From Spinellus fusiger (lineage: Eukaryota; Mucoromycota; Mucoromycetes; Mucorales; Phycomycetaceae): a stretch of DNA of 64,000 nucleotides. Positions 2,006-62,082 of the stretch are shown here, piece by piece. The position numbers were made by a program, and so were the translations under genes. The stretch is taken from the NCBI GenBank assembly GCA_025094145.1, contig JALLLS010000123.1, positions 1 to 64,000 on the forward strand, read 5' to 3'. How positions within the stretch are numbered: position 1 is the stretch's first letter; the number at the start of each line of letters is the position of its first letter. Below the pieces are notes generated by a model. The model made no database searches, was not told the origin of the DNA, and worked only from the letters and a program-made list of their open reading frames with translations.

Positions 2006-5000
2006 ATGTCTTTTACTACCTTCAGATTCAAGAAGAATGAATTCTTTACCTGCACTGTCTGCAAAAAGACATTCAAAACAAAAGGAAATATGAAATTACA
2101 CATTGCTACCCACAACATGTAAGATTAATCTTAAGTCTAAAAGTAATGTTGCTCATTCTTTACTTTGAATAGTCCCAGGATTACCTCTTCTCAGTATTTA
2201 TCATAGAAATAGAGGCATAGAATAATAAGAACCAAACTCATCATGCTTTATTGCTATTGTCTACAGACCTCTCTCTGCCATCACCACAGTCTTCTGTGTA
2301 AATGAGGAGATTAATGATGACCAGGAGATCATCACTGAAGCTGAAGAAATGCTTGAAGAGAAACCTCTTTGGGCTGCTAGAGAAGAAGGGTTTGATAGCA
2401 GCAGCAACACCTTTGAGGAGACTTCATTTGTGGATAATATGTTTCCATTCTCATCAAAACTAAAAATGATCATACATTGTTTCTTCAGTGAGAATGAGGA
2501 ACACATCTCAAGAAAATTTTCAGTGGAGATTCTTACTCTGTGTAAGGATGTAAGAGAGGCTTGCCTTGCCAATCCTCAAGAGAAAATCCCTGCCTTAAAC
2601 AGGGTTTTCAACCTTGAGAAGAGGGTGAAGAGTCATGTCCCCAAGTTTCCCACCACCACTACCCACCAGTTCTCCATGAACAAACCTTCAGATCATTTGA
2701 GGCTGCTCACTGCCAATCCCAAGAAAACAGTAATGCTTTCTGCCCTGCCAGACAGAACTCCCAACCAACAAGTTTCTGTAACTCAGGGAGAGAAGTAGAG
2801 AACACACCCTCTGTTGTGTTCCTACTTCAATCTAAAGATTCTCTATGAATAATTCAATACAAGTAGTGTGCTGTGACATTCAGAATACTCTATGAAAGCT
2901 TGAGTGTACACAAGTAACATAGTACATCTCTGTATCATCTCACTGATTGGTTGTAACTACAAATCACCTTCTAAGCTCAGTGTACTATCAGACACTTAAC
3001 AAGAGCCATCTTCATTAATAATCTTAACAGAACAATATTGACCTATCAGAGTCAATTGAGTAAAGACTCATAATAATTAATGGTTTCAATAATGGAGTGC
3101 TTATCCCAGAAACCAACCATAGGGTTGAATCTAATAATACTACAACTAAGTAAAACATATGAGCCAACCATAAGGTGGCAGTTATTAATACTATCATAAG
3201 GTAGTAATATAGACACCAACTATTTAGTTGTAATTATGAAGCAGCCATAAGGTTGACTATCATAACTACCATAAGGTAGAATAGATTATCCTACCATAAG
3301 GTAGAAGCCACTGAAGGATAAGCACCCACCAAAAGTATAAATAGTGAACCTTTCTTTACTCAATAAAAATTATCTTTGTTCAGTCTTGTTAATCCACCTG
3401 TCTAAACAATCTCACCCTCTTTTCCAGCATCCTATGGTGACTGTTAAGATTGATGGTACTCCTGTGAATCTCTGGGTTGGAGATATTGTGCACACTTCTC
3501 CTAGTGGAACAACAGCAACAACAACAACAGCATATAGGCTTGCCTCTTTCTTCACTTCATGTGATAGACTGATGGCTGATGCTTATAAAGAAGCAACTGG
3601 TTTTTCTCTTGGCAGCAGTATTGTCACTTTGGACATTGCTAGAGATGTTCAACTTCCCACCCACTCCCATACAAACTCCAACACCTACCACCCTTTCAAA
3701 AGAGCTGCCACCAGCACCAAAAGACTGTTCATGCCAGTCAAGGTTGTGCCTCTGAACTTGTTTTTGGACAACACCAGTGGCAATACCACCAAGAAGTGGA
3801 ACAAGTTTGAGAGTTGGGTTTTGTCTCCTCCTGCCATGGCATTCAAGAAACAGAATAAGACAGAGAACATGTTCTTTGTTTGTACCAGCAATAAGTTGTT
3901 GGCAGTGGAGATGCTTCCAGAGCTTGTGGAAGATCTCAAGGTGTTAGAGCAAGGTGTAGAGATGTTCAACGTTGAGTTTGGTGAGTCTGTTCTTGTTGTT
4001 AGTGTGATGCACTTCATCATGGCGGACAAACCCATGCATGCAGCAATGGCATGTAGTCTCAGTGTGAGTGCCAACTTTCCATGCAGGAAGTGCTACTGGA
4101 AGAAGGAAAGTGGAGTAGTGGACAGTGCCCCTCCCAGAAGAAGAGAAGAGTTGGTGGAAATCTAACAACACTGTGCCAACAACCCCAACAATGCCAGTTT
4201 GAGAAGTAACTCCAGTACTGGCTATAAGCTAACTGGTGGTGAAACCTTCTTGTCCCTTGAGTCATGGGTTCCTTGCAAGGATTGCCTAGTGGAGATCTTG
4301 CACACTATTCTCCTTGGTGTTGCCAAGAATCTTGTTATTGGCATGATGCCATACTATACCAAAAAAGAAGTGAAGCACTTAGAAGAAAGCTTTTTTCAGT
4401 ATGACTCAAAGGCTTTCTCAAGAAAGCACCACTCACCATTCTGCCTCTGTGGCTCATATCTTGGAAGAGATTATAAGATCATTGTGCAGCAGATGCCCAT
4501 TATCTTGTATGACCTGACCCAGAGAAGACTCATCAGCAACAACAGCTCAAAAGCAATTATTCATAATTGTTTTGGGAAGCTTGGTTCTCTTGTCTCTATT
4601 CTTTATATACACAGAATCAATGTCTTTCTGGACATCTACAGGAACAAGGTGAGATATTGCATGCAAGAGTTGGTTGCTGCAATCATCCAGTATAATTCCC
4701 TACCAGCCTTGAAGAAGTCTGTGAAGAAGACAGTCATTAGCAGTACTTTAAAAATGCATCTACTCAGTCATCTACATGAAGACATCTTGCATTTTGGATC
4801 TCCCATCCACTATGAGACTGAGGGAGGAGAGCAGTATAACAAGTTCATCAGAGAACATATACTGCACACCAACAGCCAATTGCCCTCCTGTGATGTTGCA
4901 ATTTCCTTTGGGAAGATACTGAAAAGTGTCTGGTCATGGTGGCTTCTTCACTGCTGGTGCCAAGGTAAAGCTGTTCCAACAGTTCTGTCCTCTTGTTCTC

Positions 5001-5432
5001 TCCCACAAGCTTGCTGACAACAACAGCAGCTCCAAAAGCATTGTTATTGGTCTGACTGGTCCTTTTTCCTTTTCTTCTGGTGCTTCCCCCATTTTTGGTG
5101 AGATTGTTGCCATTGACAGAAAAGAAAATATGGCTACCATTGTGCCATACAACTTTCAATTAGCCTCTGACTAAACTTCATCTACTCACCCATAATATCT
5201 TACATTGGCTTTAAAAAGCCCCAACTCTCACACTATTTTTTCCTTGGGTCAAAAGGATAGCATTAGAAACAATGTTGTCTTGCCCTTGAGCACCACTGTT
5301 GAGGTAAGCTATGATGATGTAGTAGTTGTAGAGGCAGTTGACATTCAGTCAATAAACAAATGCACTGTACTCAATGTAAGTAAGTTTGGCTCTCTCTTTT
5401 GGACAATGACTACTGGAGTTAATTCTGTGTAA
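2006..5432 (+). pseudogene. C2H2-finger DNA-transposon protein, disrupted
   Basis: Inferred exon 1 (2006-2118) starts at ATG and encodes a single classical C2H2 zinc finger (CxxC...HxxxH). Intron GTAAG...CAG, 2119-2266. Exon 2, 2267-2775, in frame. A second intron, 2776-3429, would be about 42 nt without the LTR-A copy (2812-3414) sitting in it. The main reading frame then runs to 5017, containing a CRKC pair and the motif ILHTILLGVAKNL, which I associate loosely with Tnp2-like or related DDE transposases of fungi. It is broken by an in-frame TAA at 4163-4165 and by one extra A in the A run near 4922-4925, after which the frame continues to 5174. Two further stops separate a last in-frame stretch to 5432. 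The superfamily is uncertain. CpG is almost absent. Confidence 0.65.
2812..3414 (+). mobile_element. Solo LTR, family A (A1), TSD CCCTC
   Basis: A 603-bp element running from TGTTGTGTTCC to AACAATCTCA, flanked by CCCTC at 2807-2811 and 3415-3419. Near its 3-prime end a TATAAATAG box is followed about 25 nt later by AATAAAA, the order expected for LTR U3-R. It sits inside the predicted second intron of the C2H2 transposase gene. Removing it leaves a 42-nt GT-AG intron with matching phase. No internal retrotransposon sequence remains, hence a solo LTR. Confidence 0.9.
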
Positions 5433-12625: not shown

Positions 12626-13276
12626 TGTTGTATTCCAACTTCAATCCAAAGATTCTCTATGAATAAGTCAACACAAGTAGTGTGCTGTGACATTCAGAAT
12701 ACTCTATAAAAGCTTGAGTGCACACAAGTAACATAGTATATCTCTGTATCATCTTACTGATTGGTTGTAACTACAAATCACCTTCTAAAGCTCAGTGTAC
12801 TATTGGACACTTAAGAGCCATCTTCATTAATAATCCTAACAGAACAATATTGACCTATCAAGGTCAATTGAGTAAAGACTCATAATAATTAATGGTTTCA
12901 ATAATGGTGCTTATCCCAGGAACCAACCATAGGGCTGAATCTAATAATACTACAACTAAGTAAAACATATGAGCCAACCATAAGGTGGCAGTTATTAATA
13001 CTACTATAAGGTAGCAATATAGACACCAACCATAAGGTCAAAGAGAGTGAATTCTACCATAAGGTAGAATGTCCCTACCAACCATTTAGTTGTAATTGTG
13101 AAGCAGCCATAAGGTTGACTATCATGACTACCATAAGGTAGAATAGATTATCCTACCATAAGGTAGAAGCCACTGAAGGATAAGCACCCACCAAAAGTAT
13201 AAATAGTGAACCTTTCTTTAATCAATAAAAATTATCTTTGTTCAGTCTTGTTAATCTACCTGTCTGAACAATCTCA
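12626..13276 (+). mobile_element. LTR family A (A3), recombinant
   Basis: A 651-bp full-length LTR-A from TGTTGTATTCC to GAACAATCTCA with TATAAATAG and AATAAAA. Flanking pentamers CTTAG and TCTTG do not match, and the right flank is the middle of a LINE. It is therefore a product of LTR-LTR recombination or of truncation rather than a clean solo LTR. Confidence 0.8.
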
Positions 13277-14235
13277 TCTTGGCTCCAGAACCAGTTTCTT
13301 CTCCCAGACCTAGGAACATGCCTGCCAACAGATTGATCCAGAGCCTTGTGGATTGCAGAACTAAACATAGAGCATAGGGTGTCTAAAGGAGGGGGAGAGG
13401 GTGATGAAATGAAAGCACTAAACTGCTCAACAAGGCTGTCCATTGAGCATGTGAGTGCATCTTTGTAGACCTTGAGAGAGTCAGGCTGCCCAAGCTTGGT
13501 GAGATTCCAGAGCAAACAAGGGTGAGAAGAGGAGGATGGTGAGGGGGGCATAAGTAAAGGAGTGAATGTGAGATGAAACATTTTGTGGTCAGAGCCCAGA
13601 GAAAGGTCAAGGGAAACATGCATAGATGGGTTCATAAGGGGGGAGGAGCATAGAAAAAGGTCAATAACACTTGAGCATATATTACCACCACATCCAGAGA
13701 GCAAAGTGGGCACACCAGAAGCATGAGTCTTGTTCAGGCAGTCCATCCCAGATGCAACCAGCCAGTCCAACAGAAGTGTACCACACCTGGTCACCACAGA
13801 GTCACCCACAAACAACCCAAGCCTGGCATTCAAGTCACTACAGATAATAGTAGAGGATGTCTGAACATGTGTCAAAGGAAGGTCATGGAGAACTGCTAGA
13901 GCATTAGTGTCAGAAAGGGAAGGGGGAAGGTATATACAATAGATAAGAGTGTCAAACACAATACATGATAGAACATAGGGGGATGATGAGGGAAGAAGGG
14001 AAACAGGATAGCAAAATGAGGGATTGATAAGGAGTGAAATACCCATGCTGCCACGAGATGCATTGGGGACAGACTGACCATATGTGTGGTGCTGCTGCCA
14101 AGAAAGGGGAAATAAATGTGGGGGGAGAAACCAAGTCTCAGTGATGAAGACAAGGGAGGAGGAGGAAACATAGTGCATAAGCATAGGTATGGTCTGTTTT
14201 GCTAGACCATTAGCATTCCACAGTGTGATTGTCAC
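13277..14235 (-). pseudogene. LINE-1 copy: APE-type endonuclease part of ORF2
   Basis: About 320 codons on the minus strand form an apurinic-endonuclease-like domain of a non-LTR retrotransposon: WNANGL near the start, ETWF, SDLNARLG and the catalytic GSDHK motif near residue 217. The frame starts at GTG where an ATG would be expected, 5 nt after the ORF1 stop. At 13276 the ORF is cut by LTR-A3 before the reverse transcriptase. There is no CpG between 13261 and 13960 even though the reading frame is intact. Confidence 0.8.
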
Positions 14236-14240
14236 TGGGT

Positions 14241-15020
14241 TTATAGTTCTGAGAAGGAGTGGAGGGTGCTGGAGGCCTCAAGCATGTCAGTGTCCATCCT
14301 TGTGGGAAGGATATCAGCCAACTGCTGCTCAGAAATCCAACCCTGCTGGCAGAAGGACTTGGCAACAGCAAAATGGACAGGGGCATGGATGAAACCAATG
14401 GCATTCATCATTCTGTTGTTGTGAACAGACAAGGCCTTGGCTGATTGTTCACTCTCTGACAGTGTAGCCAACTTGGGATCATGCAAATGGACTGGATTCA
14501 AAGGGTCAAAGTTTCCCAGGGTCTTCACACCAATACCCATCAAGCACTGCAGTAAGCTCTGGAGCATATCATTGTGCACCAGCATTCCCATCACCTCCTG
14601 TCTGGGTAGTGCAAGTCCAGCACTCTGGAGTTGTCATTTTCAGCTTGTTAAGTCTGGCTTTTTGCTCCTTCAGAGGCAGACAAACAGCATTGGGCACATA
14701 TAGGACTTGGAAACCAGGATTGGCATCTTCCTTCACTGTCATTCCCTGAACAACAGCAGCAATGGCCCTGGCAGTGAGCTGTTTCTTTCTTAGGGCCCTT
14801 GTCTTTGCAGCACCAGAAGCAGGAGAAGCAGCAGCCTTGGCATAAGAGCCCTTTGTGGTGGTGTGGGAACAGTGGTGGCATTGAGGGGAGGAAACTCTGG
14901 CAATCCCAAAGCACCAGAGACAGGAGAAGCACCAGAAGACAGCATTTTGAGGAGCTTCTCAATCTTCTTCTCTGCAGCAGCAAGAGCCTCTCTCAGCTGG
15001 ACATTCTCAGCTGGACACAC
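14241..15020 (-). pseudogene. LINE-1 copy: ORF1 remnants
   Basis: Two minus-strand pieces: 14790-15020 begins with a heptad-like coiled-coil stretch (ENVQLREALAAAEKKIEKLL) followed by a Pro/Ala-rich linker, and 14241-14594 ends just before ORF2. They are in different frames with a frameshifted zone between, so ORF1 is broken. Layout and position match the ORF1 of the second LINE at 24652-25616. The precise 5-prime end is not visible. Confidence 0.55.
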
Positions 15021-16569: not shown

Positions 16570-19536
16570 TGTAAGGATCAGAGTTGGGGCAGAGGAAAGA
16601 AGCAGAGGTACTAGGTGCTGTGCATCAGGAACAGGTAGGAGAACAAAGGTAAGAGACAAGAGAAGACAAGGACAGAGTACAGGTAAGAAACAGATATCAG
16701 GATATTGTTTTTATTTTAACAATGAGTTGAGTATTTATACTAGAGTGTTCTATACTGCAATCTAATTCTATATTATTTAATAAAACAATCTAATGATTAT
16801 AACAAAAGCCAAGGCAAAGATAAGAGTGGGAGGAGAGAGACTTATAATGGTTGAGACAAATGGTAGACTAATGAGTTTGTCTGGGACAAGACCATTGGCG
16901 ATGCCCAAATTACTTTCATAATTTGCCAAGAACAAACTAGTCATTACAGTATCTCCATCTTTAAGGGCAAGCTCTGCAAAGCCTTCTGGTGGGTAGTGAC
17001 TGGTGGGGTTTATCAGGGTACTGGACATGGAAGGCTTGCATAGCTTCTTTTGCATTCTATAGGTTTCCAATGGGTTCCCAGGAGTTATTGGATGGATTGG
17101 GGTAACCTTCCCAGGAAACAAGGTATTCAAGGTGGTTTCTTTGGTAACAACTATCCAGGATCCTGTCTACCACAAAATGTTCTTTGCCTTAGACTACAAT
17201 GGGTGGTGGGAGCTCAATGACATGTCCTGGGATGTCCAGGAATTTGGGGTGAGTTTTGGGTGTTAACAGGCCAACATAGAAAACAGGGTGCACTTGCATC
17301 GAGTTTGGCAGATCCAGTTTATAAGCATGAGTTCTGACCCTTTTTACAATCTTGAAAGGTCATAGACATTGATGATCCAACTTGTCAGAGGGCCTTTGTG
17401 TTTTCAAGTTTCTTCTTAGCAGGTACACTTCATCACCAACAGCAAATTTGGGGGCCTTTTTGTGTTTTTGATTGTAGTAGTATTTCTGTTTGGTCTGGGC
17501 TAGCTTGATTTCCTTCTGGAGTTTTTTGTGAATTTCTTTCAGGTGCTCACAGAGGGAATTGGCTACTAGATTAATACCAGGCAATGGGCTGGACAGAAAT
17601 TTCAGGTGGGGGTGGAAACCAAAGTTTGTGTAGAAGGGTGACTGTTTTGTTGACATACTCTGTGTGTTGTTATAGCTAAACTCTGCAAGAGGCAAAAATT
17701 CTTCCCAGTTATCTTGCTGGTAATCCACATACATGCAGAGGTATTGTTCCAAGGTAGAGTTGGTGCATTCTGTCTGGCCATCTGTTTGTAGGTGGTAGGC
17801 CATGGACATGTTAGAATTGATCCCCAATGACTTTGTCAAGCTTTGCCAGAACTTAGAGGTAAACACCAAACCATGATCAGAGACAATGTTTTGAGGCAGA
17901 CCATGGAGACAAAAGACATTCCTTATGAACATTTTGGCTAGGCCTTCAGTGTTAATAGTATTGTGACAAGGAACAAAGTGAGCCATCTTGGTCAAACAAT
18001 CTACTACTACCCATATGCTGTTGAAACCTGCAGAACTAGGCAAACCAGTAATAAAGTCCATGCTGATGGAAGACCAGGGCATCTTGGGGATTGGGAGTGG
18101 GTGAAGAGTACCATGGAGTTGCTGTCTTGGGACTTTGGCATGAATGCAGATAGGGCAGTTGGCAATATAATGGTTAACAAACCTATGCATACCAGGCCAA
18201 TGGTAGTTTCTGGCTAGGAGCTCACAGGTTTTGGCAGTTCCAAAGTGGCCAGCAACAGGGGAATTGTGGTGTTCTTGGAGTAGGGTAAGTTTCAACTGGC
18301 TATCATTGGGCATGCAGATTAAGTTGTCCTTCAGCAGTAATCCTAATTTGCTATCCTTGGTGTAGTGTGCCAGTTTTTTCTTTAGGTGAGTGGGGATTGA
18401 CAATGGAGAATCCAGGAAAGATAGGATCTTAGTGAGCTGAGGATCTTTGGCAGTGGATTCAATTAGGAAGGAGCAAGAGACTTGGTCAGGTATGGCTTGT
18501 AGGTGGGATGCAGATAGGATGAGCTGGTTCTTTTTGAACATCTGTTGTACTGGTTGCTTATCAAGGGTTACCCCCCCTTCAAAACCCAAGTCTGAGCAAT
18601 GAGAAAGAGCATAAGCTTTTGTGTTCTTGGAACCAGGGCGGTAAGTGATGACAAAGTCAAAACCAGAAAGCTTTAGGGCCCATTGAGCTTGTCTACAATT
18701 CAGTTGCTTAGTTGTTATGAAATATTCCAGGTTCTTGTGGTCAGTAAATATGACAACCTGGTGTTGAGCACCCTCCAAATAGTGGTGCTATGTCTGGAAG
18801 CTCTCAAAAATGGCTAGCATCTCCTTGTTATAGATCTTGTAATTAACTTCAGTGGGGGCCAGCTTATGGCTGTGGAAAGCAATGGGATGGAGGAAACCAT
18901 TATCACCATATTGGCTCAGGACACCAGCAACAGCAAAATCAGAGGCATTGGTTTCCACTACAATGGGGCAGGCTGGATCAAGGTAGGCCAAGATGGGAGC
19001 AGAAGTAAACTTGGACTTAAGGTTGTCAAAAGCCTCTTGGGCAGCAGGGGACCAGACAAAGGAGACATCTTTCTTCAACAGGGCTGTGAGCAGGAGAGTA
19101 GCCTTGGAATTGTTCAGGATGAAACGTTGATAAAAGTTTGTGAACCCCAGAAGGACTTGGATGTTGTGGACAGACAAGGAAGCAGGCCAGTCAACAATGG
19201 TGGAAACTTTGGCAGGGTCCATAGCAATACCAGAGGAGCTCACACAGAAACCAAGAAACTCAACTTTGGTAACATCAAATTCACATTTCTCAGCCTTTGC
19301 ATACAATTTTGCATCTCTGAGTTTCTCCAGGACCAGGAAAACATGCTTTGCATATTCTTCAGGAGTGTTGCTGTAGATTAAAATGTCATCAAGATACACA
19401 ACAACAAACTGATCCAGATAATCCCTGAGTGTGTCATTGATGAAAGATTGGAAAGATGCAGAAGCATTGGTAAGACCAGAGGGCATCACCTGGTACTCAT
19501 AATGGCCATAACGTGTTTGGAAAGCTGTCTTCCACT
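16570..19536 (-). mobile_element. Ty3/gypsy chromovirus, 5-prime truncated
   Basis: A minus-strand element: 3-prime LTR (family C, 16570-16948), then going upstream chromodomain, integrase, RNase H and reverse transcriptase. It is cut inside the reverse transcriptase at 19536 by LTR-A5. Gag, protease, the primer-binding site and the 5-prime LTR are absent, so it cannot be autonomous. Two of the MITE copies inserted into other copies of its LTR. Confidence 0.88.
16949..19536 (-). pseudogene. Chromovirus pol (RT-RNase H-IN-chromodomain)
   Basis: One minus-strand frame with a few stops. RT (18788-19536) has WKTAF, YGHYEY and the catalytic YLDDIL. RNase H has VETNASD (Asn where the catalytic Asp is expected) and ALSH. 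Integrase has an HHCC-type finger ending in CPIC near 18150, then DFITGLP, VSDHG and TDGQTEC. The chromodomain (about 16990-17130) has EHFVVDRIL and YLVSWEGY. Stops include TAG at 18788-18790 where Trp is expected, one after LDHQCL near 17360, and others around the chromodomain. Conserved Arg in SDRG, TERxN and ALSR are His, Cys and His, each explainable by loss of a CpG. No CpG occurs in 17302-18637. Confidence 0.88.
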
Positions 19537-20114
19537 TGTTGTGATCCAACTTCAATCCAAAGATTCTTCATAAATTGGTCAACATGAGTAGTATGCTGTG
19601 ACATTCAGAATACTCTATGAAAGCTTGAGTGCACACAAGTACCATAGAACATCTCTGTATCATCTCACTGATTGGTTGTAACTACAAATCAACCTTCTAA
19701 GCTCAAATTATTATTGGACACTTAATGAGCTGCCTTCATCTATAAATCCTTAGTGGATTAAATAAGACCTATCAAAGGCAATTAAAAGTGAAGACATAAT
19801 AGATGGCTCTATAATGGTGTGCTTATTCAATGAACCAGCCATAAGGCTCCAACATGTAGTCTACCATTAGGTAGAACACCTACACCAACCATAAAGCTAT
19901 ACCTATGTAAACTACCATAGGACAAATCATCTACACCAACCATACAGTTGCATCTATCAATAAGCTATGCCATGGACTAATCATTAACTACCAAAAGGTA
20001 GAATGCCACTGAAGGATAAGCACCCACAAAAAGTATAAATAATGAACCACTCTTCACTTAATAAAAATTATCTTTGTTCAGTCTTGTTATTTTCTACTTG
20101 TCTGAATAATCACA
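19537..20114 (+). mobile_element. LTR family A (A5), recombinant
   Basis: A 578-bp LTR-A from TGTTGTGATCC to GAATAATCACA with TATAAATAATG and AATAAAA. The left flank is chromovirus RT and the right flank is the 3-prime tail of a LINE; pentamers CCACT and AACAG do not match. It therefore joins two unrelated elements and marks a deletion or recombination. Confidence 0.8.
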
Positions 20115-20712: not shown

Positions 20713-23700
20713 TCAATCAATGGCTTGCAGCAGTATTAACAAACTGGGCCAAAGGTCTTGCCATTTAACAAAAGACTTAACCATGCATGGCAGAAGATTT
20801 AGACAATAGTCAATTGGATGAACGTCTTGTGGTGGTGCAGGAACTAAGAAGAACAAGAACATGGAGCATTCATGGTCAACAAATGTGCAAGTGAGAAAGT
20901 GGTCCCAATTGGCAGATGAGTGGCCACATTGGCAAGGAACTGAAGGTGTTGGTGGTAACCAAGCAATCCTCCATTTTAGTAGACAGTGTCTTTGTGAATG
21001 CATGGTAGTAGAAGAATTGGATCCCAAACAGGTCTACATAGTTTACAGGCTACTGTCACCAGCAGATTCTTGCCACATACTAGACTAGTAATTTCACTTT
21101 GAAGACGTTCAAGATAAGCTACTTTTAATGGATATTTAGGAGGGTTGTGAGCCTGTCCTATTCTTTGAGCATTTTGCCAGAGTACATTGCCACATAGCTT
21201 AATCCATCTGGCTTTACTCTGGGGTGCTTCAAGCTGTGGGACAAGGCACCAGAGGAGGGTGTCTTCAGGAAGGGTAGCTGCATGCTCAACAAATTTGGCT
21301 TGCAGATAAAGAAAACAAGAGTATATGTTAGGGATGGCAGCTAATTGGGCAACCTGGATCGTTCCAAACCTAGCAGTAGCAGATCTAGCAAGACAAAGTC
21401 TCAGACAAACAGACTGACAGATTTGTAGCAGGCAGATGCCTAGTCTATTGACATTACAAATAGCCAACCCATACTCAAGAATAGGCCAAACAAAAACAGT
21501 ATACACTCTTAGGGCTGCTGTAATCCCAAAGCCATACATGTTTACACCCATTCCTCTCAGCTTTTGCATTACTGCAATTGCTTTGACTTGTGAGTGTGAG
21601 AAAAGTGCGTCTTAGTTAATACCTTGATGTGAAAAGGGGATACCAAGGTACTTGAAAGTATCACAGGTTGGAAGCTTGTTGCTATAGAGGTAAAATGGCA
21701 CATTGGCCAGGGCATTGAGTACTTCACATTTGGAGGGACTCTATTTGTAACCAAGGAGGGTTGAGTGAATTTTGGCAAGTGCCAGCATTTGATGTATATC
21801 TTCTGGGCAGCCCATAAGAGCCACATCATCAGCATACAACAAACAATTCACAGGAGCCCAAGTAACAGTGACATGAGATGGACTGTAAGAGGAATCTGAC
21901 AACTCAGAAGAGTCATCCAAAACTGTAGAAGTAGGAAAAGGATTGTGAAGGGAATTCTGTAACTTGTCAAGCAATGTGTGAACAGCTGCCTGTGGGGAAG
22001 CAAAAGAGAAAGGATTTTGAGCACAGAGATTAATGGACCATCCCATGGTAGGTGGGTGCATACCAACCAGTATTGGGGATACCAAAGCAAACCTCAAGAA
22101 ACGTGGAAGAGTATCAATGAAAATAGAATAAAGGAATAGAGAAAGAATACTACCCTGTAAGACTCCTTGTTTAGGTAAAATGTCCCAGGATGCTAATTTT
22201 TTCAGAATCACATTCACCACAATGTCATCAAACAAATTCTGTAGTAGCAAGAGCAACAGCTGAGACACAAAGGGCATCAGCAACTCCCATATGACAGAGC
22301 ATTCCACACTATCATATGCAGCTTTAATATCTAGGAAGACAACAACTGGAGGTTTTGGATCTTGCTCTCCTGATCCTTGGGCAGTGTACAACCCCATAAG
22401 TTTGTGGAGACAGAGGGCCTGGTCTAGAGTTCCACAACAAGTGCAAAATCCACCTTGAGCCATGTCCAATGCAGGCATGGTTGAAAGGAGCTCCCCAGCT
22501 ATACATCTTGTGATTATTCAGACAAGTAGAAAGTAACAAGACTGAACAAAGATAATTTTTATTAAGTGAAGAGTGGTTCATTATTTATACTTTTTGTGGG
22601 TGCTTATCCTTCAGTGGCATTCTACCTTTTGGTAGTTAATGATTAGTCAATGACATAGCTTATTGATAGATACAACTGTATGGTTGGTGTAGATGATTTA
22701 TCCTATGGTAGTTTACATAGGTGTAGCCTTATGGTTGGTTCATTGAATAAGCACACCATTATAGAGCCATCTATTATGTCTTCACTTTTAATTGCCTTTG
22801 ATAGGTCTTATTTAATCCACTAAGGATTTATAGATGAAGGCAGCTCATTAAGTGTCCAATAATAATTTGAGCTTAGAAGGTTGATTTATAGTTACAACCA
22901 ATCAGTGAGATGATACAGAGATGTTCTATGGTACTTGTGTGCACTCAAGCTTTCATAGAGTATTCTGAATGTCACAGCATACTACTCATGTTGACCAATT
23001 TATGAAGAATCTTTGGATTGAAGTTGGAACATGACACATCTTTCTAAGAGCTTACAAAACACCAATGTCAAGCTAATTGGCCAATAGTTACTAGGGTCAT
23101 CCTGCTCTCCTTTGTTTTTGTAAATAGGTGCCACCTGTGCTGTTCTCCAGGCCACAGGTGTCCATGACCATCTCCAACACAATGTGAAGATCTGATGTAA
23201 CAGAGGCACTAGCACTCAAACTAGGGGTTTGAGCATTTCTGCTCTAATATGATCAATGCCTGGTGCTTTTTGATTTGGCATCTTTCAAATAGCAGAGTGA
23301 ATAAAGTCTACGTCCCATGGGACTGGATTGTCTTGGAGAATAAACTCCTGATGCTCCTGTCTTTCCATAGATCCACCAAACACACTCTCTAGGTGGTCAA
23401 TCATGCAATTGGCAGCATGCCAAGGGCCCTCTCAAGATGACAAGGAAATTGGCAAACGTCTCTGCAGCCTCATTCCTTTTACAGCACTTGTCATCTCTGT
23501 TAAGCCCTTATGGACTTTATCACAAAATACATGCCAGGTTTGTTGTTGTGCTTGCCTTATAGCCTTTTTCAAAGCTAAACATGCTTCCTCATACAAGCAG
23601 TGGGCTTCAATGCATTCAATATTATTGTCTACCCATTGTCTAAAACAATAAAGTTCTTGACAATGGTCAGCTAACTGTTGTAGATCAGCATTCCAGTAGC

Positions 23701-26055: not shown

Positions 26056-27062
26056 CTAGTGACTCTCTACAGCTACTTTGCATAGATTTTCATAATAAAA
26101 TTGAGCTCAGGTTCCTTTATAAAAAAAAAGAAACCAGACAGAAATTAGAGACATTGTGATATGATCAAGAAACAGCAGCATACTGTAAAGAATGAGTGAG
26201 ATGAATCAGTCATATAATCCTATGAGCTAAGTACTTCTTTTTCCTATAGGACATTCAGGCTGAACTATAAATACATGCTCAATCAATAACCAGAATATTA
26301 TGATAAGCACAATAAAACACTACTGTTTCAGACTAATGTAAAGAAATGATTCCAATCACTTGCATTTATTTGGAAAGCCCTCTTTATCATTATAGAGTAG
26401 ATATGTATGCTAACATTGAACAAGGTTCTCTGAATTTTATACGGCACAACCAAGACACATTGAGAAGAGATATATTGAGTGGTGTACATGATGCTGTTAC
26501 CTCAGACCCCATTTATTAAAGAAACGAGAGGTTAACATTTAACAGTTTATAAATAAATAAATAAAACAGCTACAGAATCAATGGTATTGAATAAAGCATC
26601 TAAGTCGTAGCGTATTTAATACAGTTGATAGATCTTTTATAGATAATATAAAAGTACAACAGCCTGCATTAAAATGTATGTCTTTTGGTAGTGATTTACT
26701 TGAATTTCTTTTATCTGTAATAATCATTAAAGTATAAAAGAAGTATAAAAGAATTATAAAAGAATAACAAACAAGTTGAATAAAAAAGAGCAGAGTTAAT
26801 TGTACGTTAGCTAAACCAAATACCTTTGGACCTAAGGAGCTATTGACAACACCATCACATCAATGGATGATAAATAATAGCTGACACTATTCAGTGTTGC
26901 TAATAAAATAACTATTTATTTCCTCTTTCTTATTGTATTTCTATCTATTATTTCTGAACTAAAGATGTTATGCAGCCAACAAGATGTTAATGAAGTAAAA
27001 AAGATACAACATGCTTATAGATTCAACCTAGGATTCTTACATGTATTTGATTTTTATAATAG

Positions 27063-29151
27063 ACTGATGAAGAGCCTATAGCAAGTTCTTTGGGTGCAAA
27101 TCATTCCAGAATAATGACAATCAAGACATCTTTACGTGATACTGCTTGGAGTTCTGAATATTCACCTGTTTTACAATGTCTGGTTGATAACATAAATACC
27201 ATTGTTTCTCACACATATGCGTTCTCCAAGTATATATTGATCCATCTACTCGAAAATGAAGATGGATCTTCTTTGAATGATTGCATAACTAAGGATTTCT
27301 TCCGTGAGGTATTTTTGTCACTCATTGATAGGCAAATCAGAGAGGGTAGTGCTTCCAGTAAAACACGTCTCACACCCAAGGTGCGTCAAATAAGAGAGAA
27401 GATCAACCCTCTGAAGAATGACTACTGTCAATATGCGTCATACACTCTAATCAAAATAACCAATGCTCAACAGATCTCCATTTATGAAAGCACCAAGATA
27501 CACACATCCTACACCAATAATATTGTGTCTCAATTTGGGAATCGTCTTAGAATGTTCTTCAACATCATCCTGCAACAAAAAGAAAGAATTGCCTCATTGA
27601 CCCATGCCATGAAAACCAAAAAATATTCTGAGGAGGCTATTGCAAATATTATTAGATTAAATGCGTTGGATGTGTGTACGCAAATCAAACTAGACATTTT
27701 GACAAAAACTGTTCCCAATGCACTCATAGATTTCTTGAACAAAAAGGACATTAGCCAAATACAAGAACTACTCACCTGCTATCCTCCCAGTTATAGATTT
27801 GCTAAAAACTCCACCTATTATGATGTTAAAGCCAATCCAACCAAGCACATGTACGCATTTGCTAAGCTGGCCCAACTATGTGAAGAGAATGGAAAGAAAT
27901 CTTTTAGTTGCTTCCCACTTCGTAAAAGCTTCATTCCCTCTCACATTACGATAGATAATAAGATACTCAACCACCCTATCTTGAAAAACAAAAGCTACAC
28001 GGGCGAAAAGTTTGATCTTTGGGGTCAAGTCTTCAATCTAAAATCAAAGGTGTTCAAAAGTCAAGGTATAGATAGGTCAATGAGATTCCAAGGTACAATA
28101 GAAACCGATGGTGTGGCAGTGTCGGTGATCAAGCAAAACTTTATGTCGAGACGTTCCTCGGGTGGTAGTCGCAAAGCACTTATTGATGAGAATTACATTG
28201 AGTCTATTGAAGAGTTATCTCAAGCTGCATTAGTATAGACAAAAGACAGATGTCTACTCATCGATCCGGGTCGTCGAGACCTATTATTCTGTATGCAAGA
28301 AAACAGTACACCCGATAATAAATCCATCTACAGGTATACACGTAATCAACGAGCCAAAGAAACAAAGTCAACCCATTTCAAGAAGCTTCGACAGAACCTC
28401 AAGCCTCCATCCATCCAAAGACTAGAAAACAAACTTAGTCAAGTTCCTGCTTCAACAGTAAAACTCAAAGAGTTCATCAAATACATACAAACAAAAGCAA
28501 GTGTGTCGGATAACTTGATACTGTATTACGGCAATGAAGCAATGAAGGATGATAATGGGCAAAGAAAAGACAGTGGTATCAAAGAAAAAGGCTCCTCAAG
28601 TGCCAATTCTCTTATTATGAAACAATCGATACTACCATTTCGAAAGATGAAGCTATCGAGTCATATCAATAGATTGCAGTCTGATAAACGACTAGCCCGA
28701 AACTTGAGAGCCAAGTTTGGAGAAGATCCGGTGTTGATCTTGGGCAACTGGTCAAGCATAAATATGAAGTTCCATGAACCAATAAAGAGAAAAGGCATGC
28801 GGAGGATGTTGAAAAAAGAAGAATTCAAGCTCTATCTTATCAATGAATTCAAAACATCGACCCTATGTCCTGAGTGCAAGTACTCGCCTTTGGAAAAAGT
28901 TAAACATATCAAGAACCCCAGGCCCTATCAACGAACAAAAATACTCCAAGTTAAATGTCATGGTCTTCTCAGGTCATTTCTTCTTAATTTTATATCAAAA
29001 AAGAAACTCATTTCCCTCCCTTCAAATAGGTGTTCAAACCAAAATTGTATGAAAGACAAGACATTGAGGCTTTGGGAATCGTGATCCAGCTGCTACATTG
29101 AACTTTGGACATAGTCTAATGTCTCCAAGGGAAAATGGTACTCTCTCATAG
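27063..29151 (+). pseudogene. Fanzor (eukaryotic TnpB-like RNA-guided nuclease), damaged
   Basis: Reading from a probable 3-prime splice site at 27062 (alternative first ATG 27114), the frame is open for 391 codons with GTIETDGVAVSVI near 28100, a Fanzor hallmark. It meets one TAG at 28236-28238. It continues with the RuvC-I motif LLIDPGRRDLLF (Asp about codon 401), GNWSS...HEPIKRKGMRRML, then INEFKTSTLCPEC near 28836-28875. The Glu of NEF is in the rearranged catalytic position used by Fanzors. A 57-nt GT-AG intron (28973-29029) splits CHGLLR from CSNQNC and its removal rebuilds the zinc-binding loop. One extra G in TTTGGG (29071-29076) then throws the frame off just before RuvC-III NRDPAATLNF; that frame ends with TAG at 29149. 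Two lesions make activity doubtful. Confidence 0.88.
28973..29029 (+). other. Inferred 57-nt intron in Fanzor gene
   Basis: GTCATTTC...AAATAG. Splicing joins AG to GTGTTCAAAC and gives CHGLLRCSNQNC, the family zinc-loop pattern. The intron length is a multiple of three and has no in-frame stop, so retention would keep the frame open. The copy at 61480-61860 has the same sequence. Confidence 0.7.
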
Positions 29152-29362
29152 TGCTTTTGTAGATAGAACAAAAGAAAACATGACTCCAAAGATACACCTA
29201 GAACCAATAAAAGGTCCAAGCCTTCTGGTTCATCTCCATCCTTCTCCTCCCCAGTTATCGCTGGAGCCTCGGTTGACTAACTGACGGAAACCCATGATAC
29301 AGGTAAACTACCTAAGAAGTGATAATGAAGTGTATCTTATTCGATTTTTTCATGCAAAAAGA
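29090..29362 (+). ncRNA. Candidate Fanzor guide RNA (omega-RNA) region
   Basis: Sequence downstream of RuvC-III to the element end is conserved between the two copies, including the non-coding part after the stop codon: blocks around CAAGGGAAAATGG, CTCGGTTGACT, CTGACGGAAACCCATG and TATCTTATTCGATTTTTTCATG. In Fanzor and TnpB systems the guide RNA is encoded at the 3-prime end and reaches the element boundary. Structure and expression are unknown. Confidence 0.4.
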
Positions 29363-29395
29363 TATTATAACATCTAGTAGAGATTACTATTGTTC

Positions 29396-58622: not shown

Positions 58623-60190
58623 ATGGAAGTGGGGATCTTTACAACTAAGATGGAGGGTTCAGTTGCTGTTTTAAATATGAAAGTGGACAATGATCAATAC
58701 CCACTGCACAACGTCACAAACTTTAGACACTACATGGAACTGAAGCCTCCGGAAAAGCAGGTCAAGGACAATAAACTTGATAACTTAAAAGATGATGGCA
58801 TCATCAAAAATGAACAGGTTGCAAAAGCAAGGTATTGTTCATATATAAAAAAGAGGATAAGGATAGGTTTTTTTTATTGGGTATATGAGAAGCAACTTAG
58901 TGTCCGTACTGCTTACAGAAAGATCAAAATGCCTCCTAGCACTGGCCAAAACCGGTTCAAAAAAGGAACAGAGAGTTTAAATAAGGATGAAGACTTACCT
59001 CACAGGAAAAATGGTGGCGGTTCGAATAGTAATTCGGCTGGAAAACCACCTAAACTTTGCAAAGAACACAAGGATTTTGTGGTTGACATGGTAGATGAAA
59101 AGCCAGATAGTGCTCTGGAGGAAGTGATAGAGCGGTTGAATGCCCAGTTTATAAGTTGAGCATCAATTATAGTAAGAAAAATGTATACTATTTCGACACT
59201 TCTGAAGGCAATTCCTGCACTAATATTATACAAATAATAAAAAGGAACTTGTCAAGTCATTAACACTCTGCAACCACAGGAGTCCATACTTTTGACAGAC
59301 ATATAGACAGCAGCAGTGCACTTTACTTTCTAATACTGCCCCTGTACACTGTAATCTATCTATTCAATGTGTTCATAGTATTATTGGTTATGATGAATCA
59401 AGATAAAAAGAGTTGGTATCAATAAAGAGCAGTTGATTCTATATATAATCAGCTGAAATTAGAAATGTTGAAGTTTGAGGTGAATGCGTATAGAAACACC
59501 CTTATTAACTACTGAAATCAGTTAGGATTTGTATATTTTTCTGTAGACCACACTCTGGCCTTCACTGAAAAACACACAAAGAGAAACAGCTTTGTTGGGC
59601 TAAGGAACATGCCAGTTAAGCAAGTGGTTAGTAAAGAGGTATCGTTTAGTCTGATGAGTCAACATACATTATGAAAGAGAGCAATAGAGATGCCTGTGTC
59701 ATTAAAATAGTTAGAGAACGATATAGTTATAACCCTATTGATCCAACGATGCAGTTTGGTGGTGATGGTGTGATGTTTTAGAGCTGTTATTAGGCTAATG
59801 GATTTAGCTCATTAGTCGTTGTTAATAGCACTGTAAACCAAGACAAATACATCATTGTTTTAGTTAGTGAGTTCCATCCTTGGTTCATGGAGTTGTATCA
59901 GAAAGAGAACAGTAAGTTTCTGTTACAAGAAGAGGGTGCTAGATGTCATACTAGGGCCTATGCTAGATAGTGGAAAGAGACATATCAGATTAGCAGCTTT
60001 GATTACTAGCCTACACAAATCCCTGACTTGAACTCAACTGAACATTTTTGATACGCCTTGGAAATATGAATTGAATAAAGAAGGGTATCTATTATCAATA
60101 TAGAAAGTTAGTGTTGAACTTGCACAACAGTAAATTCAGAGTATGAATGACAGATTTCAGGCTATCATTGATGCTAAAGAAGGCCATACA
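58623..60190 (+). pseudogene. Decayed Tc1-type transposase
   Basis: The N-terminal part (58623-59159) is open for 178 codons with a helix-turn-helix-like segment, YCSYIKKRIRIGFFYWVYEKQLSVRTAYRK, in two blocks. Beyond several stops, the DDE core is still readable between about 59648 and 60070: SDESTYIM, GGDGVMF, EEGARCHT, and IPDLNSTEHF. In this core TAG or TGA stands at places where Tc1 transposases have Trp (after VMF, before the IPDLN block, after EHF). It is related at family level to the transposase at 6285-7592 but is a separate lineage. No terminal inverted repeats were identified. Confidence 0.75.
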
Positions 60191-60511
60191 AAATATTAAC
60201 TGTATTATTATTCTATTCTCGATAAATAAAGATATCGAGACTTGATATGCTTAAGTTTGAAGCTTCTAAATCAAATGTAGTGTTTTATTTTATGTTTAAA
60301 ATGTTCTATCTATCTCGTCCTGATATTTATTTTCAAAAGTATTCAATTCAGTTGAGTGTGGCTGTATTAACACTTTCTTGAACAAGTATGTTTATCCTAA
60401 CTATATACCCAATAGCATTATTTGAGTGAACCATGTTCAAAATAGATAGACAAGCTGTTATAAGTATGGCTATTTGCGCAAAAGTCATCTTAATTGTTCA
60501 AATAATGATAG

Positions 60512-62046
60512 AAACCAAACAGAAAGTAGTGACATTGTGATATGACCAAGAAATGGCAGCTTACTGTAAAGAATGAGTGAAATAAATCAGTCGTACAATC
60601 CTATGAGCTTAGTACTTCTTTCTTCCTACAGGACAGTTAGGTTGGACTATAAAAACATGCTCAGTCAATGACCAAAATGTCAAGATAAGCACAATAAAAC
60701 ACTACTGCTTCAGATTGATGTACATAGAGATAAATCACTTGCATTTATTTGGAAAGCCCCTTTATCAGTATGGAGTAGACATGCATGCTAACATTGAACA
60801 AGGCTGTCTGAGTTTTATATAGCATAACAAAGACAAACTGAGAAGAGATATACTAAGTGGTGTACATGATACTGTTACTTCAGGTTCTATACACTAAAAA
60901 CGAGTAGTTAGTAGTTAGTAGTTATCAGTTTGTAAATAAATAAATAAAACAAACAGTTACAAAATAAATGGTCTGGAATGAAGCATTTATGATAAGTTGT
61001 AGTGTATTTGAATGCAGTGGATAGATCTTTTAGAGATAGTATAAGAGTATAACAGCCTTTATTAGAATGTGTGCCTTTTGGTGGTGATTTCCTTGAAGTT
61101 CCTCTATATGTAATAATCATTAGAATAAAAGAATAACATACAAGTTGAATAAAAAAAGAAGGAACAGAATGAATCATACGTTAACTAAACAGATATCTTT
61201 GGACATAAGAAGCCATTGATGACACTTTCACATCAATAGAGGATGAATAGTAGCTGATACTATACAATGTTATTAAAGGCTATCCATTTCCTCTTTCTGA
61301 TTGTATTTCTATCTATTTTTTCTGAACTAAAGATGTTATGTAGCCAAAAAGATACGAATAAAGTAAATTAAATACAATATGCCTATAGAATCAATCTAAG
61401 GTTCTTAAATGTATTTGATTTTCATAGGAGACTATAGCAAGTTATCCAGGTGCGAATCCTACCAGAGTAATGACAATAAAAGGAAAAGGCATGCGGAGGA
61501 TGTTGAAGAAAGAAGGATTCAAGCTCTATCTTATCAATGAATTCAAAACATCGACCCTATGTCCTGAGTGCAAGTAATCACCTTTTGGAAACAGTTAAAC
61601 ATATCAAGAACCCCAGGCCCTATCAACGAACAAAAATACTCCAAGTTAAATGTCATGGTCTTCTCAGGTCATTTCTTCTTAATTTTATATCAAAAAAGAA
61701 ACTCATTTCCCTCCCTTCAAATAGGTGTTCAAACCAAAATTGTATGAAAGACAAGACATTGAGGCTTTGGGAATCGTGATCTAGCTTCTACATTGAACTT
61801 TGGACATAGTCTAATGTCTCCAAGGGAAAATGGTACCCTATTATAGTGCTTTTGTAGATAGAACAAAAGAGAACATAAAGATACACCTAGAACTAAGAAA
61901 AGGTCCAAGCCTTCTTGTTTATCTTTCTCCTTCCCCAGTGATCACTGGTGTCTCGGTTGACTCACTGACGGAAACCCATGCTACAGGTAAACTATCTAAA
62001 AAGTGATAATAGAGTGTATCTTATTCGATTTTTTCATGCAAAAAGA
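60512..62046 (+). mobile_element. FzA-delta: internally deleted Fanzor element
   Basis: The 5-prime about 970 nt and 3-prime about 560 nt match the FzA element (26130-27120 and 28788-29362); about 1.7 kb of coding sequence is missing, joined between ATGACAAT and AAAGGAAAAGGCATG. The remaining C-terminal piece (61480-61855) keeps NEFKTSTLCPEC, the intron and the NRDPAATLNF segment with the same extra G in TTTGGG. It also has an extra base near 61577 that shifts the frame after CPECK. The 3-prime non-coding region is retained. The form is that of a non-autonomous derivative. Confidence 0.8.
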
Positions 62047-62051
62047 CATAA

Positions 62052-62082
62052 TAATGTACAGTATTTATTATACTGTACATTA
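62052..62082. repeat. 13-bp perfect inverted repeat beside FzA-delta
   Basis: TAATGTACAGTAT at 62052-62064 is inverted at 62070-62082 with spacer TTATT, starting 5 nt after the end of homology between the two Fanzor copies. The FzA copy at 29362 does not have it. Confidence 0.8.

Follow-up and report, generated by a model that had tools for sequence, protein, structure and literature searches.

The Fanzor-bearing element in positions 1-64000 of contig 28 of the Spinellus fusiger genome, the 64,000-nucleotide stretch that we analysed and refer to here as the window, is in our estimate, with a probability of about 90%, the dead, 5′-truncated copy of a transposon with a single Fanzor1 gene in this fungus, a member of the Phycomycetaceae (Mucorales). 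To our knowledge, studies of Fanzors in their native hosts are scarce, and a literature search found no publication on a Fanzor in Spinellus and none on the S. fusiger genome. The window element belongs to the known Fanzor1 kind, of which it is a new member and not a new system, and as an individual the window copy is an ordinary dead transposon. The genome as searched (38.08 Mb, 197 contigs) holds many comparable copies, a signature of past selection, short derivatives that go back to a single founder, and readable junctions, and the Spinellus family is suited to testing what a Fanzor does for its transposon.

The Fanzor gene

The element occupies 26129..29379 on the forward strand, where it is 5′-truncated and complete at its 3′ end, and it aligns to seven other loci at 90-94% identity. 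Its gene is read in two open stretches, 27063-28238 and 28239-29084, split by a single TAG. Searched separately and unjoined, the halves match the structurally solved Fanzor 1 of Parasitella parasitica, PpFz1 (E=1.4e-90 and 2e-62), and, more weakly, SpuFz1 of Spizellomyces (8.3e-17 and 5.8e-26), in agreement with the Fanzor identity that the first-pass annotation had proposed. A relative elsewhere in the genome, L013, has a natural open frame of 663 residues that reaches 4.1e-159 to PpFz1 and 7.1e-43 to SpuFz1. With this frame as the query, 78 homologous proteins were found among the 7997 candidates scored, the top one from Pilaira anomala at 49% identity; the named species among them are either Mucorales (Pilaira, Rhizopus, Parasitella, Mucor, Gilbertella, Cokeromyces, Helicostylum) or Coemansia and Martensiomyces. 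PF26935.1 is precomputed on 68 of the 78 homologues, and six of the 78 were aligned with the window halves.

The landmarks listed in the first-pass annotation lie where it had placed them: GTIETDGVAV, LLIDPGRRD and INEFKTS, together with CPEC, are all inside the two open stretches, and NRDPAATLNF is read in another frame, past about 29070. PMC10711439 gives as the Fanzor1 signature DPG at RuvC-I and a Glu six residues ahead of the zinc finger (Ealt); here, DPG is found in LLIDPGRRD, and NEFKTSTLC comprises the Glu, six residues and the Cys. The signature in PMC3627910 is D-X(125,275)-[TS][TS]XX-C4 zinc finger-X(5,50)-RD, and the window gene has about 197 residues from the Asp to TS (by hand count), CPEC and CSNQNC, and an RD some 10 residues further on, which in the window copy is reached only in a different frame. 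The spacing of the RuvC motifs, which had been named as a possible point of failure, agrees with these published signatures. The window gene is a real Fanzor1 pseudogene, and the original Fanzor call is right.

Its predicted exon 1 (27114..28972, forward strand), the limits of which come from an alignment of 14 near-full-length copies (the window copy and 13 others), holds the REC/WED part, RuvC-I, the rearranged Glu and the first zinc pair. The other zinc pair falls in predicted exon 2 (29030..29151, forward strand), together with RuvC-III (NRD..ATLNF), which is out of frame here. Between them lies the predicted 57-nt intron already named in the first-pass annotation, at 28973..29029 (forward strand), which has kept its GT..AG borders in 10 of the 14 near-full-length copies and in 56 of 67 short derivatives. 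Once it is removed, the zinc part would read CHGLLR-C....C, as in the Rhizopus relative P0010.

Lesions and decay of the copies

The reading frame of the window copy is not intact, as it contains both a stop and a frame change. The in-frame TAG at 28236..28238 (forward strand) is real and private to the window copy among the 14 aligned; by our count it lies 24 nt, and not 26 nt as annotated, ahead of the Asp codon at 28263. The second annotated lesion, a length difference near 29070 that changes the frame before RuvC-III, is likewise real and is common to four of the 14 near-full-length copies, to 18 of 60 scorable short derivatives (six of the 66 fetched were unscorable) and to the window's own derivative at 59443-62063. 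Because so many copies have it in common, the frame change is inherited or recurrent, and an assembly error, which we considered as its source, is unlikely. The claim that the gene is interrupted only by these two lesions did not hold, as the copy additionally lacks the 5′ part of the element. Nor did the suggestion that related copies may be intact find support: exon 1 is free of stops in two of the 14 copies, of which one has no ATG and the other no GT at the aligned donor, and none of the Fanzor genes in this alignment, which leaves the genome's more distant Fanzor families outside, is unambiguously intact.

Limits of the element and a nested Tc1 transposon

On the left, six of the seven alignments to other loci begin at 26120 or 26129 and one further inside. 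The 3′ end of the window element, ...ATCTAGTA, is at 29379, so that the right limit given in the first-pass annotation, 29362, had to be moved by 17 nt. The copies have a common 3′ end, AGAYATTATAATRTCT-AGTA, which is palindrome-like and varies slightly; it has 353 genome matches at up to 2 mismatches, part of them counted twice owing to the palindrome, against 6 for the control. The real 5′ end of the element consists of about 60 bp that open with (T)ACTGAAAAATCACTTTTTAAGAAGGG and stand ahead of a Tc1 part in three copies, L095, L097 and L099 (62 bp in L095). Its 26-nt 5′ end has 78 genome matches at up to 3 mismatches, and the reversed control none.

Long copies reach 4.7 kb, and in the longest ones remains of a Tc1-type transposase lie upstream of the Fanzor in the same orientation (HTH_Tnp_Tc3_2 3.7e-9, DDE_3 1.2e-9). 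In L020, the Tc1-type element has 23-nt inverted repeats (83% complementary) at 4020-4042 and 5344-5366, 1.3 kb apart. The nest of Tc1 inside the element is assembled from different copies, as L020 has both Tc1 repeats and not the 5′ end of the element. The nested Tc1 is a passenger. Searches for terminal inverted repeats of the Fanzor-bearing element itself found none, also on its complete copy L121, where 250, 379 and 341 of 500 shuffles were as good over 30, 60 and 100 nt, respectively. In the window copy the 3′ end is kept, and both the 5′ end and the Tc1 are gone. Two neighbors were seen next to other copies. On contig C110, an element copy begins its left part a few dozen bases downstream of a tRNA-Phe gene (L013 5179-5253, ARAGORN). 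In L026, a distinct remnant of a Tc1-type transposase (407-1101; DDE_3 E=5.4e-5, below cut-off) lies upstream of the Fanzor element and is no part of it.

Past selection and CpG content

The genome search returned at least 61 matching pieces, at least 14 of them near full length including the window copy (from the best 40 of 309 candidates). Variants common to two or more of the 14 copies number 47, 50 and 85 at codon positions 1, 2 and 3, whereas private variants are spread evenly (101, 97 and 96; Fisher p=0.0026 for position 3). Because shared variants favor third codon positions and private ones do not, purifying selection acted on the source gene during the spread of the family, and the copies now decay without selection. 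Private changes amount to 1.7% in the window copy, within a range of 0.6-3.4% over the 14.

The CpG observed/expected ratio is 0.03-0.13 in 4-kb bins across window positions 1-28000, 0.29-0.54 in the remaining window and 0.50 in the window element, which bears out the annotated contrast with the neighboring transposons. All 14 copies have a similarly high ratio across their aligned gene regions (0.53-0.66), and so the Fanzor gene family as a whole differs in CpG from the neighboring retrotransposons; the median ratio is 0.32 in the 66 fetched short derivatives. The first-pass annotation had read the contrast as a younger age or a different treatment of the element; the younger age stands only in part, given the high CpG of the whole family and the fact that 10 of the 13 other copies carry fewer private changes than the window copy. 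Further Fanzor families, with 45-55% identity to the window's C-terminal piece and with stops within, were seen at C142:116841, C110:204770, C145:248675, C114:459689, C121:158430 and C195:72684.

A short derivative multiplied from one founder

A second relative in the window, at 59443..62063 on the forward strand, is an internally deleted derivative, 5′-truncated, that aligns with the long copy L010 to the left and to the right of a single deletion. It includes a remnant of the nested Tc1 (59443..60366, forward strand), which shows homology to L018-L020 over the 3′ part of their Tc1 region and has the Tc1 3′ inverted repeat at 60349-60366. At the deletion junction (61464..61490, forward strand), the region of the Fanzor start codon is joined to the C-terminal region, and about 1.66 kb are absent; 1659-1668 bp lie between the same borders in the 14 near-full-length copies, and CAATMAAG is present at both borders. 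With the C-terminal piece as a protein query, the genome gave at least 144 matches, many over its last third alone (from the best 138 of 429 candidates). We fetched 66 of 75 loci chosen from these matches, all with the C-terminal part only, and more short derivatives were read than copies of the full form.

The junction is identical in 67 of 67 derivatives examined, namely the 66 fetched loci and the one in the window, and therefore one founder derivative multiplied. Other deletion classes also turned up in the genome search (query 996|1966 and 1186|1942). Like ghost loci, the derivatives have lost the Fanzor interior and exist in many copies, and one of them, L121, is complete from the 5′ to the 3′ end with that junction; most of the others were read at one end alone. 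L121 (62-1568; C137:209841-211347) is a complete 1.5-kb derivative that has lost a further internal stretch and carries at its ends a perfect direct repeat of 11 nt. In the derivatives, the Fanzor ATG opens the joined frame, and 49 of the 67 have an exon 1 that is open and in frame. Divergence by codon position is alike (0.048/0.060/0.052), which means that no selection on a derivative protein is seen.

Insertion sites

To the right of the element, we collected 72 flanks, all different, of which 66 are at least 11 nt long. ACT stands at +5 to +9 after CTAGTA in 36 of these 66, against a mean of 6.4 in shuffles, none of 2000 of which was as high; each flank is that of the last pattern match in its locus, so a few probably come from places other than element ends and dilute the motif. 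In nearly all cases TA closes the 3′ end or succeeds it, and insertion sites favor TA-N-ACT. At the other side, 38 loci were examined, eight of them taken from a list of such ends and thus biased toward kept ends; 23 were readable, and two eroded ones (L098, L100) and 13 that gave no match were set aside. Of the 23 readable 5′ ends, 22 have ATT, and 15 have TATAATT, directly in front of the first (A)CTG. Direct repeats of 11 nt flank two of the 17 copies read at both ends, with TACTAATCATT at L121 and TAGTTATGTAA at the L122/L075 copy.

Proposed mechanism and alternative explanations

How might the Fanzor have served its transposon? By extension from PpFz1 and TnpB, the intact ancestor would have bound RNA from the element's 3′ end, with the guide coming from the right flank, and would have cut a matching site beside an AT-N motif; such cutting would have helped the element to persist after excision. 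In TnpB transposons, the insertion mark and the nuclease motif coincide. The ATT at the Spinellus 5′ ends fits the 5′-ATN-3′ motif of PpFz1, as would be expected if insertion mark and nuclease motif were one and the same here. The place where a guide RNA may be expected is the 3′ region at 29152..29379 (forward strand), by analogy with SpuFz1 as described in PMC10432273. The enzyme that mobilized the element was probably supplied in trans.

Several results weigh against this reading of the window element. Folding of the last 130 nt does not surpass that of shuffles (z=-0.23), an alignment of the 3′ region from 79 copies shows one short stem of at most 9 pairs with hardly any double changes (3 double-change cells), and an Rfam search of the region gave no match. 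It is homology that suggests the guide-RNA step, and RNA-guided cutting by the family's Fanzor is likewise an inference. Curated Pfam and NCBIfam cut-offs were missed, at 13.1 and 16.4 bits versus 26.3 for Cas12f1-like_TNB and 15.8 versus 100 for guided_TnpB; both models describe TnpB/Cas12f, and the searched Pfam gave no PF26935.1 report even for the Rhizopus relative P0010. Finally, no target duplication was found in 15 of the 17 copies read at both ends, with right flanks of just 9-10 nt for L063 and L080.

What, then, moved the element? As in PGv-1 (Bao and Jurka), a Tc1/mariner transposon could carry the Fanzor as cargo and move it by a Tc1 transposase that uses terminal inverted repeats and TA sites, and the transposase remains upstream in the longest copies and the TA at the 3′ end would both be consistent with this. 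However, the inverted repeats of the Tc1 in L020 leave the Fanzor outside them, about 60 bp of the element stand ahead of the Tc1 part in other copies, the ends of L121 are no more alike as inverted repeats than shuffles, and the target repeats, where present, are 11 nt and not TA. We consider the cargo explanation improbable and rejected Tc1 as the carrier, since its own inverted repeats enclose the Tc1 alone. A recombinase of the element's own class, tyrosine recombinase/Crypton-like or other, that acts at TA-N(6-9)-ACT(G) at the 5′ end of the element and at the target is a more serious, if tentative, candidate; it concerns the mover alone and is compatible with a dead Fanzor1 transposon copy. 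The enrichment of ACT in the right flanks and the 5′ ends, mostly TA..ATT-ACTG, point toward it, as does MCi-2, an element without inverted repeats and with 11-12-bp repeats that has part of a Crypton gene (PMC3627910). Yet a genome-wide search with the PF00589 integrase model, which left other Crypton models unsearched, gave one weak match (3.8e-4) that falls short of the family cut-off, its contig having no listed 5′ end, and two insertions have perfect 11-nt direct repeats, which Cryptons are said in the same source not to make. A still wider proposal, which we think rather unlikely, would make the family a separate class of Fanzor-linked transposons that lack inverted repeats and insert at TA-N(6-9)-ACT(G), in which the left-end ATT would be insertion mark and nuclease motif at once, and a coding-dead derivative would have spread by keeping the last 600 bp with the guide-RNA source, retained by the Fanzor in trans.

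Two further explanations would leave a living gene in the family. The short derivative might be a selected gene, its start codon joined in frame to the zinc-finger/RuvC-III part to encode a small protein: all 67 derivatives have the one junction, which is in frame in the majority sequence, exon 1 is open and in frame in most of them, and divergence of the coding region averages about 0.05, versus 0.09-0.12 upstream and 0.05-0.19 downstream per 20 columns. The lower divergence, however, can be explained by the protein search of the same region, which selects open, conserved copies, and divergence at the three codon positions is equal; we rejected a protein-coding role on the latter ground and hold the explanation to be very improbable. 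That the window's Fanzor gene is still functional, via stop read-through or another gene model, would agree with its intact motifs and its low divergence from other copies, but is contradicted by the stop and frame change, the 5′ truncation and the even spread of private changes over codon positions in the family, and has next to no probability.

Comparison with known Fanzor systems

The closest known counterparts are PpFz1 for the protein, MCi-2 for the element and the SpuFz1 ghost loci for the derivatives. PpFz1, with structures PDB 9cf0-9cf3 and the motif 5′-ATN-3′ (PMC11423790), is the nearest solved relative; it comes from the same order, Mucorales, and has the RuvC and zinc landmarks in common with the window gene, which is broken, unlike PpFz1. 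In the comparison with the L013 frame, a stretch of 94 residues in the PpFz1 chain (988-1082) is represented by only 16 in the Spinellus protein, and the part that is missing may correspond to the FRI domain.

For Spizellomyces punctatus, PMC10432273 reports 42 loci with full or partial Fz and 134 ghosts for SpuFz1/Spu-1, the elements having 30-nt inverted repeats and the ghosts being about 550 nt long without an Fz frame. Like Spu-1, the Spinellus elements form a multi-copy Fanzor1 family in which deleted relatives outnumber full ones; unlike it, they have no terminal inverted repeats, and the derivative retains the last ~600 bp including the C-terminal coding part. MCi-2 of Mucor circinelloides, according to PMC3627910, has no inverted repeats, 11-12-bp target repeats with ATAATT and copies that are 99% identical over 6 kb, one subfamily having part of a Crypton gene. 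Likened by description only, it has in common with the Spinellus element the order Mucorales, the lack of terminal inverted repeats, a variable 5′ part and a constant 3′ part. Its ATAATT-bearing repeats compare with the 11-nt repeats at two of 17 Spinellus copies and with TATAATT left of 15 of 23 5′ ends, whereas the Crypton gene part was not found in the Spinellus element. PGv-1 and PUl-1 (PMC3627910) likewise combine a Tc1-type transposase and a Fanzor in one element; in contrast, the Spinellus Tc1 sits nested as a passenger, bounded by inverted repeats of its own.

Genomic setting of the window

A sharp CpG border near 28 kb separates a retrotransposon stretch on one side from gene-bearing DNA on the other. 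The retrotransposon stretch contains an endonuclease (13222-14277), an integrase with a reverse transcriptase (17360-19567) and a further reverse transcriptase (21741-22517). A host gene in the window matches a chitin deacetylase of Phycomyces nitens at 72% identity and 76% coverage.

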